DNA from: a virus
Strand: one strand, 5' to 3'
Virus record (IMG/VR): IMGVR_UViG_3300027759_000192
Span: 1 to 38,693 of that record
DNA: 38,693 nucleotides
Shown here: piece after piece, positions 3,106 to 8,706 of the stretch
How positions within the stretch are numbered: the stretch's first letter is position 1
How the letters are laid out: each line of letters starts with the position of its first letter
Program-made: the position numbers and the translations under genes
Notes under the pieces: generated by a model
Databases searched by the model: none
Told to the model about the DNA's origin: nothing
What the model saw: only the letters and a program-made list of their open reading frames with translations

Positions 3106-3115
3106 GTATGGCAAC

Positions 3116-3222
3116 CCTATGGGCAGGCACACCGATCATATGCACCTACCCATAGGAGATAGCCACCAATTATCTACTAGCCATATGGATAAAGGCTAGA
3201 GATACTACCAATAGGGCTATTG
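3116..3222 (-). other. Three-hairpin intergenic segment between the 240-aa and 106-aa genes
   Basis: CCTATGGGCAGG at 3116-3127 pairs with CCTACCCATAGG at 3145-3156 over 12 positions. The single mismatch is C-A on plus but G-U on the minus strand. CTAGCC/GGCTAG spans 3177-3182/3194-3199, and CAATAG/CTATTG lies at about 3209-3222 with a 2-nt loop. The segment begins about 50 nt beyond the stop of the 240-aa gene. It could terminate or stabilise that transcript, or be part of the next leader. No coding frame is present in 2928-3274. Confidence 0.5.
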
Positions 3223-5324: not shown

Positions 5325-5787
5325 TGTCATCACCTACTAAGAAGTCCCAAGGCTTAGTGCTAGGGGCTCTGTTAGTTGCTTCTGTGATAGCAGTAGCAAG
5401 TGAACCGATAGCCCCACCCTCACCTACGATTGTCTCATCAGCAGTATCGCTAAAGCGCAAGACACTAACCATAGATTTCTTGTCAGCAACAACAACTAAG
5501 CGAACTCTACGCCTGTCCTTACGCTGTGATGGTGGTATATCTGAGTCATCATCATGAGGTGAAGCCCAACCTGTAGTTGCTACGCCTATGTGGCTATACA
5601 CAGTGAGTAGATCGGCTACATCAGTACCGTCTAGCAAATCGTATATGTCACCTCTCTCGTCACATAGCATTACAAGACCATCAGTATCCACGCCGTATAG
5701 GCAAGCCTTTGGCATCTCAAAGCCAAGTTTCCTTTGGTCATTGAGGTTACGCTCTATGCTCTTAGCAAAGTCCACAGTGGTAGCCAT
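5317..5787 (-). CDS. Hypothetical 156-aa protein between AAA+ and VWA genes
   Basis: I do not recognise this protein. The start ATG at 5787 overlaps the stop of the AAA+ gene as TAATG, typical of translational coupling; the longer open frame to 5850 is overlap with that gene. Visible features are a mixed alpha/beta pattern, an acidic patch (HDDDSDIPP, about residues 78-86) followed by a basic stretch (QRKDRRRVR), and a Gly-rich turn (VGEGGAIGSLATAI) near the C-terminus. No transmembrane or secretion signal is seen. Sandwiched between an AAA+ ATPase and a VWA protein, it is a candidate third component of that complex (inference from position only). Confidence 0.83.
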   Translation of the reverse strand: MATTVDFAKSIERNLNDQRKLGFEMPKACLYGVDTDGLVMLCDERGDIYDLLDGTDVADLLTVYSHIGVATTGWASPHDDDSDIPPSQRKDRRRVRLVVVADKKSMVSVLRFSDTADETIVGEGGAIGSLATAITEATNRAPSTKPWDFLVGDDNE

Positions 5788-6542
5788 TATGCTTCCACCT
5801 TTGCAAGCAGGAGAGTGTCCATCAGTGTCTCTTGGATACGAGGTAAGCACACTTGGGCAGAGTGCTGTAGGTTGCCAGTCCTGCTGTAGATTCCAGCAAA
5901 CTCTACGAAGTTTCGTAGTGAGTAGCGGTCATTACCACTACGGCTACCAAACGAGTAAGCAATCTCACGCAAGTACTCAGGTAAAGCAAGCAGACCATCA
6001 GGGTGTGGCTCGTTGATCTCTAACTGTACGACCAATCGATCACGAATAGCCCTAGTCAAGTCCTCTGGCTCACCGTTCATAGTTGCTACGACTGAGAAGT
6101 CGGGGTGCGGAGTAACGATCTCACCAGTCTGAGGGTTACGCCACCGTGAACTATGGCTAGTGTCAATCATTGACATCAGCACACCAACCATTGCGCTATT
6201 GGCTAGGTTGATTTCGTCAATGACTAAACGCCCACCAGTACGCCATGCTTCAATAGCAGGGCCTTCATGGAAGTTAGTTACTACCTGACCGTTGTCGTTA
6301 GTCTCTTGCTTCCAAGTACCTAAGATGTGATACTCGGACATTTCATCATTACAAGTCAAGCGGAATGATGGCTTGTCGTCTAGGTGGTAGTGCAAGGCGT
6401 AATAAGTTTTGCCTGTTCCTGGCGCACCATAGAGCAACACTCGCCCTAATCCGTTTGATAAAGCAAAGTCTGCTTGACTCCACTCGTTTAGTGGTTCTAA
6501 CGGCTGAGCGTTAGCAACCTGTTCTAGTATTTCTGTACTCAT
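5787..6542 (-). CDS. MoxR/CobS-like AAA+ ATPase
   Basis: ATP-driven remodelling enzyme of the AAA_5 group (MoxR, CobS, GvpN, McrB-like), usually a hexameric ring working with a VWA partner. The 251-aa chain is essentially a bare AAA+ module. Walker A GAPGTGKT is at residues 39-46, Walker B RLVIDEIN at 105-112, sensor 1 ATMN at 153-156, arginine-finger candidates R164/R167, and a sensor-2-like arginine near 210. The ATG at 6542 has GGGAG eight bases upstream. It is the first gene of the run AAA+, 156 aa, VWA, 240 aa, with overlaps or tiny gaps throughout. A ~400-nt structured leader precedes it. The family call is secure; the substrate is unknown. CobS-like ATPases are known in phages, but I do not recognise this five-gene arrangement. 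Confidence 0.93.
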   Translation of the reverse strand: MSTEILEQVANAQPLEPLNEWSQADFALSNGLGRVLLYGAPGTGKTYYALHYHLDDKPSFRLTCNDEMSEYHILGTWKQETNDNGQVVTNFHEGPAIEAWRTGGRLVIDEINLANSAMVGVLMSMIDTSHSSRWRNPQTGEIVTPHPDFSVVATMNGEPEDLTRAIRDRLVVQLEINEPHPDGLLALPEYLREIAYSFGSRSGNDRYSLRNFVEFAGIYSRTGNLQHSAQVCLPRIQETLMDTLLLAKVEA

Positions 6543-6570
6543 TTGATTATCTCCCTATTGGTTTTGGATA

Positions 6571-6766
6571 ATCACAAGCGGTATTACTTGTGATCCGTGA
6601 ATACTTAGAGTCAGGGGGTTTGCGGTATGGGGATACCCAACCCTAAGTACTCACGGACTACAAGTAGATTGCATACTCGCCAACTTGTGTGGGTATGCAA
6701 GCCACATAGTCCATAAGTGTTAGCGGACTTTCATCTATCGGGGTAGAAAGGGTAAGACCCGATAGA
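6571..6766 (-). ncRNA. Highly structured leader of the AAA+/VWA operon (four hairpins)
   Basis: Four consecutive inverted repeats lie just upstream of the AAA+ start. (1) ATCACAAG/CTTGTGAT, 6571-6578/6587-6594. (2) A 14-bp stem, 6595-6608/6643-6656, whose only mismatch is A-C on plus and G-U on minus; nested inside is GGTAT/ATACC with loop GGGG, flanked by GGGTT/AACCC. (3) GGACTA/TAGTCC (6655-6660/6707-6712) enclosing TTGCATAC/GTATGCAA (6669-6676/6693-6700). (4) TCTATCGGG/CCCGATAGA, 6734-6742/6758-6766. Elements 2 and 3 abut exactly. They are too short for tRNAs and lack a T-loop. A minus-strand 5' leader RNA, a processed small RNA or DNA cruciform sites are all possible. A possible 18-codon frame (ATG near 6714) runs through element 3. 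Confidence 0.55.
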
Positions 6767-6780
6767 GAACTATAACTACT

Positions 6781-6942
6781 TTACTTTTTTCTTTGCCGTT
6801 CGGAACTGTCGGCGAAATCCACGATATCACCGATTCGGGGGGGTTCGCAACTCCGCCGGATCACCGCCCCCACCCCGCCGAATCGGGGAGTGGAGACGAT
6901 CCTTACGCGTGATGTCCGCAGCGGTAGCGGTAGCGGTAGCAG
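6781..6942 (-). promoter_or_regulatory. Leader/regulatory element, copy A, with 15-bp inverted repeat and GCGGTA repeats
   Basis: CCGATTCGG followed by GGGGGT (6830-6844) is inverted at 6872-6886 with one G-G mismatch over 15 positions. Between the arms is CGCAACTC. At 6919-6936 GCGGTA is repeated three times in tandem, followed by a GGTAGCTGCTACC palindrome on the minus strand that runs into the stop of the next gene. CACCGATTCG, CGCAACTC and CGGTAGCGGTAG occur in the same order as in copy B (2950-3105). A GCCG/CGGC hairpin followed by an A-rich tract also recurs. I infer a duplicated control region; the tandem GCGGTA could be iteron-like. Confidence 0.5.
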
Positions 6943-7503
6943 CTACCAAGTAAAGCAAGCGTCGATTAATGCGCTTGCAAGTTTCATATTCTTTTTGTAG
7001 ACCTGATCCTTTGGAATGCTTTCTGATTCTAATTTTCCATCCGGAAATCTACTGATGATATGCACACCTAGTGGTGTTGTCATCGTTGTGAGTTTGATTG
7101 TCACCCTGTCGTCAGCAGCGGAAGGACGTATGCCCCGGTCGACAGCGGTAGGAGATGCCCAAGCTTCCGATCGAGTAATGATCCCAATGCAGTCATCCTT
7201 CTTGCATTCGTCTATAGCTTCGTAGTCATCGGTCAGCACGTAGATGTCCGGGTATGTGGCCTTGTACATACAGCTGATTGCTGAGACTTCAGTTGTTTCA
7301 TCTGCTTCGTTCACTATGGTCAGCTCGCCCCGGTTCTTCACGTTCAAGGACAGGTACCATAGCTCGCTGTCTCCCTCGTCCATTGGATGCGCTACCTCAT
7401 GAAAGAAAACTTCCATCTTCTTGAAGTCATTCATCTCAACCTCAAAGCTTTCGGAGAATATCTTTTTGTATTCATCCTCGATAATCTTCTCTAGTTCATC
7501 CAT
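6943..7503 (-). CDS. Hypothetical 186-aa protein
   Basis: I do not recognise this protein. It is acidic in its N-terminal third (DELEKIIEDEYKKIF) and beta-rich afterwards, with a Cys-Lys-Lys-Asp-Asp-Cys motif near residues 99-104. No signal peptide or membrane helix is seen. Its start overlaps the stop of the 69-aa gene by 8 nt, so they share a transcript. It is the last gene before the structured leader of the AAA+/VWA module, and its base usage lacks the CTAG richness of that module, which helps place the island's boundary near 6.9 kb. Confidence 0.8.
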   Translation of the reverse strand: MDELEKIIEDEYKKIFSESFEVEMNDFKKMEVFFHEVAHPMDEGDSELWYLSLNVKNRGELTIVNEADETTEVSAISCMYKATYPDIYVLTDDYEAIDECKKDDCIGIITRSEAWASPTAVDRGIRPSAADDRVTIKLTTMTTPLGVHIISRFPDGKLESESIPKDQVYKKNMKLASALIDACFTW

Positions 7504-7705
7504 TGCTAACCACCTTTCCCTTGGCTCGATACTCTGCGTACATCTTGCTCCTATCCACTGACTCAGCCGGGAGTAGATCAGCTACACCTATGGCTATGTC
7601 TGTTATCAGTGGACGTATGTGTGGTGCTGCAATCAATGCCAGCATCAGTATCTCTGTTAATAGATTCTCTACTTGTTCTTTGTCATTGTCTGTAAGTGCG
7701 ACCAT
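7496..7705 (-). CDS. Hypothetical 69-aa protein
   Basis: Unrecognised small protein. I choose the ATG at 7705 (MVALTDND) because a GAAGGAAAAG ribosome site precedes it; an in-frame ATG at 7723 would place that site inside the gene. Residues about 14-45 form a hydrophobic stretch interrupted by His, Pro and Asp (LTEILMLALIAAPHIRPLI), which could be a weak membrane helix or a buried amphipathic one. It overlaps the following 186-aa gene and may be the first gene of a short unit starting after the hairpin at 7771-7801. Confidence 0.65.
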   Translation of the reverse strand: MVALTDNDKEQVENLLTEILMLALIAAPHIRPLITDIAIGVADLLPAESVDRSKMYAEYRAKGKVVSNG

Positions 7706-8259: not shown

Positions 8260-8398
8260 TTGCTTTCTCCCTTATTCGTTGATGTATCTCTGTGTCAATT
8301 GCTTCAAGTGTGTCGTGAAGATCTTGCTCTTCGATCCTACCTACATACACACGGCGTAGAAACTTTGATGCGTTAAGCAGCGCTCTGTCAGCGATCAC
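8228..8398 (-). CDS. Hypothetical 56-aa helical protein
   Basis: Unrecognised small helical protein rich in charged residues (RRVYVGRIEEQDLHDTLEAI). I place the start at the GTG at 8398, which overlaps the WhiB stop as GTGA with AAGAAGG upstream. An ATG at 8470 in the same frame would lie deep inside the WhiB gene. It overlaps the following zinc-finger gene by 32 nt. It is probably translated by coupling with whiB. A regulatory or DNA-binding role is possible but nothing shows it. Confidence 0.6.
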   Translation of the reverse strand: MIADRALLNASKFLRRVYVGRIEEQDLHDTLEAIDTEIHQRIREKANESRKNRQVH

Positions 8399-8706
8399 AT
8401 CAAACCTATTGCCTTCTTGCGTAGCTTTGATTTGTAATCCTTGCGTTGTCGTGGGCCCATGCCACCCCATATTCCTTCCGTAAATGTATTGTCTAATGCG
8501 AATTGTAGGCAGTCATCCTTGACTTTACAAGTCCTGCATATCTCCTTGGCAAACGCAGCTAGCCCATCTGCATCGCCTTTATCCGGGAAGAATAGGTGCG
8601 TCATCCCTTTGCAATCTGCATCGTCCATCCAATCGAACTTCTTATTTGATAAGTGCCACTCCTCGAGAATGCTCACGTTTAGCTCCCTTCGTTTTTGGTC
8701 TGACAT
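8395..8706 (-). CDS. whiB: WhiB-family iron-sulfur transcription factor
   Basis: WhiB proteins bind a [4Fe-4S] cluster and usually act on the primary sigma factor; they occur only in Actinobacteria and their phages. The 103-aa chain has the four cluster cysteines C32, C57, C60 and C66 (CxxC spacing in EICRTCKVKDDC), the GIWGG turn at residues 78-82 and a basic C-terminal tail (RQRKDYKSKLRKK) for DNA contact. TGAGGA precedes the ATG at 8706. In mycobacteriophage TM4 a phage WhiB interferes with host WhiB2 and septation and contributes to superinfection exclusion; a similar role is plausible here. Neighbours are a secreted lysozyme-like gene upstream and a coupled small gene downstream. Confidence 0.95.
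   Translation of the reverse strand: MSDQKRRELNVSILEEWHLSNKKFDWMDDADCKGMTHLFFPDKGDADGLAAFAKEICRTCKVKDDCLQFALDNTFTEGIWGGMGPRQRKDYKSKLRKKAIGLM

Follow-up and report, generated by a model that had tools for sequence, protein, structure and literature searches.

Does the DNA ahead of a phage ATPase gene encode a conserved RNA structure, and what would such an RNA do for the gene that follows it? The window, i.e., the whole stretch of 38,693 nucleotides from viral record IMGVR_UViG_3300027759_000192, raises this question on its minus strand, where the leader region 6543-6775 lies upstream of an AAA_5 (MoxR/CobS-like) ATPase gene (5787-6542). A sequence-only reading had described four back-to-back hairpins in this leader and had suggested selection as minus-strand RNA. 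The RNA in question is the 5' leader of an actinophage AAA+ operon, and its core belongs to a virus-specific RNA family. A WhiB-like regulator gene at 8395-8706 (minus) is consistent with an actinobacterial host.

Structure of the ATPase leader

Folding against shuffled sequence, set beforehand as a possible refutation, placed the real leader far ahead of its shuffles. The minus-strand RNA of 6540-6775 reached -84.3 kcal/mol (z = -7.36) with none of 200 shuffles equal to it, and the plus strand of the same region had a z of -5.74. The minus-strand RNA is what is conserved in the leader, and selection as such, proposed earlier from wobble-type mismatches, is strongly supported by folding and covariation. 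As had been stated, the long-stem mismatch becomes a G-U pair when read as minus-strand RNA, and it is G-U in all nine aligned leaders. The same strand bias had been noted for the stems at 2566-2597 and 3116-3156 and was recovered in their folds, with -28.0 (minus) vs. -10.8 kcal/mol (plus) for 2560-2603 and -30.0 vs. -17.0 kcal/mol for 3110-3162.

The hairpins described earlier are real, but the conserved object is a double pseudoknot together with a downstream part that encloses the Shine-Dalgarno (SD) site. On the minus strand, hairpin H0 comes first, followed by the pseudoknot and then by the long and alternative hairpins enclosing the SD site. In the pseudoknot, the hairpin loops of H1 and S1 pair with the adjacent downstream strands X' and S2', which are separated by a single base, and the second pseudoknot helix X (6719-6725/6678-6684) connects the small hairpin H1 to the S1/S2 core. 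Compensatory changes in relatives are present for every leader helix. The parts are as follows:

6821-6850, minus: promoter-like TTGCGA-N18-TATCGT upstream of the leader; sole match in the window, 0.05 expected per mononucleotide shuffle
6735-6765, minus: H0, 8-bp hairpin with a pyrimidine-rich loop, 5' of the pseudoknot; 67 of 69 alignment cells paired, two pairs with two-sided changes
6715-6730, minus: H1, small hairpin AAGU/ACUU with an 8-nt loop bearing strand X; 36 of 36 cells paired
6719-6725, minus: X, CGCUAAC, partner X' at 6678-6684 (GUUGGCG); 7 of 7 pairs with two-sided changes in 17 sequences
6702-6706, minus: 5' strand of S1, UGUGG, partner CCACA at 6688-6692; 5 of 5 pairs with two-sided changes
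6693-6701, minus: loop, with L1 = C (6701) and then the 5' strand of S2, UUGCAUAC; motif C-U-N-R-C-A-K-A-C
6688-6692, minus: 3' strand of S1, CCACA (alignment of 17 cores)
6678-6684, minus: X', GUUGGCG (alignment of 17 cores)
6669-6676, minus: 3' strand of S2, GUAUGCAA, one A (6677) after X' (alignment of 17 cores)
6594-6657, minus: hp3, long hairpin of 15 pairs including one G-U; 133 of 135 cells paired, five pairs with two-sided changes
6587-6664, minus: basal extension of hp3 (CUUGUAG/UCACAAG), exclusive with hp4; 50 of 63 cells paired, part of the minimum-free-energy (MFE) fold
6571-6594, minus: hp4, alternative hairpin AUCACAAG/CUUGUGAU; 72 of 72 cells paired, 1.9-9.1 kcal/mol above the MFE in nine leaders
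6544-6574, minus: SD-enclosing hairpin UGAUUAUC/GAUAAUCA around the SD AGGGAG (6551-6556); MFE in the window
5787-6542, minus: AAA_5 (MoxR/CobS-like) ATPase gene headed by the leader RNA (PF07728, 2.4e-18; phrog_16448, 3.5e-52)

A repeat finder recovered the long stem and a stem at 6664-6705. The element read earlier as a stem of 6+8 bp is a pseudoknot instead, formed by S1 (6702-6706/6688-6692) and S2 (6693-6700/6669-6676). The 8-bp hairpin at 6571-6594 corresponds to hp4, a less stable alternative that raises the folding energy by 5.5 kcal/mol when imposed on the leader of the window. Relatives do not keep the nested hairpin whose loop reads GGGG (CCCC in the RNA), judging by eye from alignment A1.

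Three intergenic hairpins whose stems of 17-18 bp run without interruption in the minus-strand RNA occur elsewhere in the window at 2560-2603, 3110-3162, and 2455-2506, with -28, -30, and -31.3 kcal/mol (minus), respectively, and the first of them has a UUCG loop. They are possibly actinophage 3' ends without a U-run.

Conservation among viral relatives

A protein search for the ATPase returned 62 viral loci encoding a relative. In the DNA upstream of the starts, L001-L008 keep the full leader, and L009, L010, L011, L013, L025, and L026 retain a smaller core. L002 has an extended H1, GAGAGU/ACUCUC. Across the window and L001-L008, paired cells amounted to 63 of 63 in X, 45 of 45 in S1, and 65 of 71 in S2, besides those of H0, hp3, and hp4 (67/69, 133/135, and 72/72).

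Covariation in homologues, whose absence had been named as the other possible refutation, is clear. Alignment A3 comprises 17 cores, 12 of them found by protein homology and five (L032, L035, L041, L043, L074) found using the pairing rules. Standard pairs occupy 93.5% of its 340 cells, and two-sided changes occur in 15 of 20 pairs, including all seven of X and all five of S1; S2 is partly constant in sequence. The covariation score was 0.674, compared with 0.184 for shuffled and 0.04-0.08 for slid alignments. The covariance model R1 matched the window at 6669-6725 with an E-value of 5.5e-10, the window being a member of its training set, and 23 of 63 sources (the window and the 62 loci) at E < 1e-3, of which 16 are training rows and seven lie outside training. 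Three of these seven (L003, L006, L007) are near-copies, and the other four (L038, L039, L042, L047) carry the match about 0.9 kb upstream of the ATPase, where it heads the preceding gene. The pseudoknot heads the gene just 5' of the AAA+ gene in L038, L039, L041-L043, and L047. Other phages also carry the double pseudoknot on the downstream side of the ATPase, at a distance of about 2.6-2.8 kb (L032:6449-6503, L035:4256-4314).

At the gathering threshold, Rfam 15 gave no matches on the window, on 20 loci, or on 12 loci. No pseudoknot in 10 small loci was matched at E <= 2, and the six matches in the leader region at E <= 10 were each far under their own gathering score.

Downstream block and promoter-like site

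The block of hp3 and hp4 was seen only in the window lineage among the loci compared. In predicted folds of the downstream part made without the pseudoknot, the SD is enclosed in the MFE state of all nine leaders of this lineage. In L001-L008, CCCUUGU is predicted to pair with the ACAAGGG of the SD; in the window, this pairing is lost on both sides, and UGAUUAUC/GAUAAUCA is used instead. The base of hp3 and hp4 are mutually exclusive, and forcing hp4 carries a penalty of 1.9-9.1 kcal/mol across the nine leaders. Since the SD remains largely paired when hp4 is forced, by another strand, no ON/OFF switch is claimed; in the window, forcing hp4 freed no SD, and hence no ON state is predicted. A pairing between the H0 loop and the SD, visible by eye in L013, fails in L043 and is not claimed.

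The window contains a single copy of the promoter-like motif TTGCGA-N17/18-TAKCGT (6850-6821, minus), which is also present in L001-L008 and L013, with its -10-like part alone in L009-L011 and no match in L025/L026. In L004, L005, L007, and L008, the site is displaced upstream by about 200-330 nt relative to its place in the window. As the pseudoknot stays beside the ATPase gene while the promoter-like site shifts, it appears tied to the gene and not to the promoter. Upstream of the promoter-like site, CTACCGCTACCGC repeats occupy 6915-6945 of the window and are found in many places in relatives.

A wider family of the pseudoknot core

Beyond the ATPase relatives, the S1/S2 core is recognized by L1 = C and an S2 that is usually UGGCAGAC, UGGCAUAC, or UGACAUAC. 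Initial scans by structure alone were insufficiently strict. Pattern scans of IMG/VR with loop and partner strands yielded 33, 64, and at least 120 stretches. Flanking S1 helices of at least 3 bp accompanied 90 of 125 CTGGCAGAC matches and 24 of 70 CTGGCATAC matches vs. 2 of 46 matches of a permuted motif; this permuted-motif scan replaced reverse and complement controls, which are uninformative because self-complementarity survives in them. The loci collected hold 135 distinct pseudoknots, 103 of them with at least 4 pairs in S1 and at least 7 in S2. Of these 103 good copies, 87 have a G-C closing pair and 98 have an A just before S2', a position at which the search patterns mostly required a purine. 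In 55 dissimilar copies, for which an S1 of at least 4 bp was a selection rule, all S1 pairs and 3 of 8 S2 pairs had two-sided changes. Among the SD-bearing starts listed for the good copies, 52 of 62 lie 12-43 nt past the pseudoknot.

Judged by eye from their first residues, the genes downstream look like AAA+, RecA, primase-helicase, DEXH helicase, YqaJ-like nuclease, UDG-PolA, glycosyltransferase, and a structural gene. Two records carry a copy at each of three gene junctions within a short stretch, L189 (2046, 2368, 2535) and L262 (1176, 1499, 1909). Comparison with isolate phages by blastn gave one clear case, the cultured Luteibacter phage vB_LflM-Pluto, in which a copy with an S2 of 6 bp precedes a 3' exonuclease gene. 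Homologues of the AAA+ protein in isolate phages had at most about 30% identity. A further protein scan returned nothing beyond its own locus.

Two gene families were surveyed with queries picked because they bear the pseudoknot. The structural gene of L185 had 74 relatives by protein search, 69 of them with at least 60 nt upstream, and the pseudoknot was present in 68 of these 69, 14-18 nt (6 nt in one) before the match. The 68 cases are not independent events because the relatives are close. No SD was seen in the leaders of this family, which have a U-rich stretch instead. For the RecA gene of L189, the pseudoknot was found in 47 of 80 relatives, and 21 of the 33 relatives lacking it have a promoter-like site within 130 nt.

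Sampled bacterial genomes almost entirely lack the core. In two sets, of 369 and 385 bacterial genomes, scanned with strict filters and 17-18 candidates scored per genome, the covariance model R2 matched only the seed genome of each set at E <= 1e-4. Among 84,980 species genomes, a pattern scan picked up 17 stretches, several of them before phage-like genes. In 40 viral records preselected for having a copy, R2 found 1-3 strong copies per record.

Alternative readings of the pseudoknot

Simple copies frequently run directly into a U-run after S2' (28 of 77, vs. 3-7 of 76-77 at other offsets, about fivefold), which resembles a 3'-end or terminator feature. The pseudoknot could accordingly be an element of mRNA ends, either an intercistronic exonuclease barrier or a (partial) terminator or attenuator in which the S2 helix and the U-run end or protect the upstream transcript. 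A stop codon lies 7-12 nt 5' of the pseudoknot in 16 of 44 copies, and copies stand before a promoter (L464; L437, by eye), directly before tRNAs (L121, L135, L157), and ahead of an origin-like stretch (L120) and a convergent gene (L149). In L157 there are also four matches to tRNAs and one, below threshold, to a group I intron. This reading, the main rival to translation control, is rather unlikely: there is no U-run in the window or in most AAA+ leaders, a terminator scan of 6500-7600 found none, and these copies sit in a true 5' leader behind their own promoter-like site. Start codons moreover lie mostly 12-43 nt downstream, and a plain hairpin would suffice to end a transcript, yet S1 and X covary.

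The 7-12 nt between stop codon and pseudoknot, seen in 16 of 44 copies, would suit a recoding signal, with readthrough or frameshifting at the upstream stop codon. This is very improbable, as in 27 of 44 copies the frame is closed again 9-38 codons past the stop, and the window has no gene ending close upstream.

Replication and recombination genes are often nearby, and the L120 pseudoknot (minus strand, after 8181) has an origin-like stretch downstream with DnaA-box-like and parS-like sequence. A DNA element, such as an origin or a single-stranded DNA structure, is nonetheless highly unlikely. The orientation matches that of the flanking gene in most copies, although orientation statistics from our own ORF calls are unreliable in GC-rich contigs, where the structural-gene family was miscalled convergent. 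G-U pairs also favour one strand, and a single-nucleotide L1 spanning 8 bp is compatible with A-form RNA geometry.

The constant S2 bases (C-G, A-U, C-G) beside variable X and S1 and the SD-enclosing platform recall a ligand- or protein-gated regulator, with the pseudoknot as an aptamer or phage-protein operator and the SD hairpin as expression platform. A precedent exists in T4, where the leader of gene 32 contains a pseudoknot bound by gp32 itself (PMC3014915). Such gating seems improbable here, given that the breadth of hosts and genes is too great for one phage protein and that the few conserved unpaired bases (L1 and the A before S2') leave scant room for a pocket. One of the "constant" S2 pairs, position 7, also swaps in the structural-gene family, with A-U in 30 members, G-C in 38, and no mismatches.

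Proposed control of translation initiation

The pseudoknot probably controls expression of the following gene, as the comparison with known leaders suggests. For the window, translation control is ranked first, with restrained confidence, because the leader has its own promoter-like site, no U-run, and an enclosed SD. As a cis-acting element at translation initiation, a compact pseudoknot just 5' of the ribosome-binding site (RBS) would serve the 30S subunit or protein S1 as a landing site or gate; by analogy, we put this somewhat below an even chance. In the window lineage, hp3 and the SD hairpin would conceal the SD and so make production of the AAA+ protein dependent on the pseudoknot or a factor acting there. 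Structure, compensatory evolution, position, breadth, and predicted SD occlusion were all obtained by calculation; 30S/S1 recruitment and any regulation by the pseudoknot are inferred.

The distance to start codons, the linkage to the gene and not the promoter, the enclosure of the SD, and the precedents of tisB and timP favour a role in translation; the U-run after 28 of 77 simple copies, the copies ahead of a promoter, tRNAs, an origin-like stretch, or a convergent gene, the presence of the core in only 47 of 80 RecA relatives, and the lack of a predicted ON state in the window oppose it. Caution in assuming that pseudoknots recruit 30S also comes from a viral IRES that works in E. coli via protein S1 and does not need its pseudoknots for ribosome recruitment (PMC9458429).

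Taken more broadly, it is an evenly balanced proposition that these copies form a virus-specific pseudoknot class, usually with 1-3 copies per genome, in unrelated DNA phages of many bacterial phyla. Such a class would act directly on universal host machinery (30S/S1, RNA polymerase, or RNases) to set the expression of a chosen gene and would be elaborated in the window lineage into the double pseudoknot with its SD-hiding platform.

Structured bacterial gene leaders are well catalogued, and phage leaders are not. A literature word search, which cannot match sequences, found no description of the pseudoknot motif; a 2017 list, which reportedly holds 224 bacterial RNA motifs, lay outside this comparison. 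A small pseudoknot that compensatory changes preserve, that unrelated phages carry before RecA, polymerase, helicase, AAA+, and structural genes, and that bacterial chromosomes nearly lack points to a common phage device for expression control. It is short and open to direct testing in cultured phage, at least in Luteibacter phage Pluto.

Comparison with known systems

Intrinsic terminators share with about one third of the simple copies a GC-rich stem followed by a U-run. They differ in that the copies have a pseudoknot topology and a 2-3 nt spacer, and the window has no U-run; no stem followed by a U-run was found in 6500-7600.

The gene 32 leader of T4/T2 is likewise an H-type pseudoknot in a phage leader. 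It serves a single gene whose own product binds it, whereas here one sequence family stands before many unrelated genes, which argues against an operator of the T4 gene 32 type.

The STAXI motif (RF01728; PMC2864571) offers another comparison. It is similar in being a pseudoknot near genes for DNA-handling proteins and different in its tandem repeats and UUCG loops, and the window pseudoknot has no Rfam match.

The nearest parallels considered for translation are tisB and timP. A 5' pseudoknot of E. coli tisB is required for binding of 30S and protein S1, with the RBS sequestered about 100 nt downstream (PMC7708055), and timP is a further standby pseudoknot (PMC11228461). These are host type I toxin mRNAs of other sequence, whereas here phage genes are concerned and a role for 30S/S1 would follow by analogy. 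The likeness lies in the layout: the window pseudoknot is upstream of the RBS within a 5' leader, the RBS is predicted to be sequestered in all nine leaders of the window lineage when folded with the pseudoknot left out, and the distance from the end of the pseudoknot to the SD is 112 nt in the window, compared with about 100 nt in tisB.
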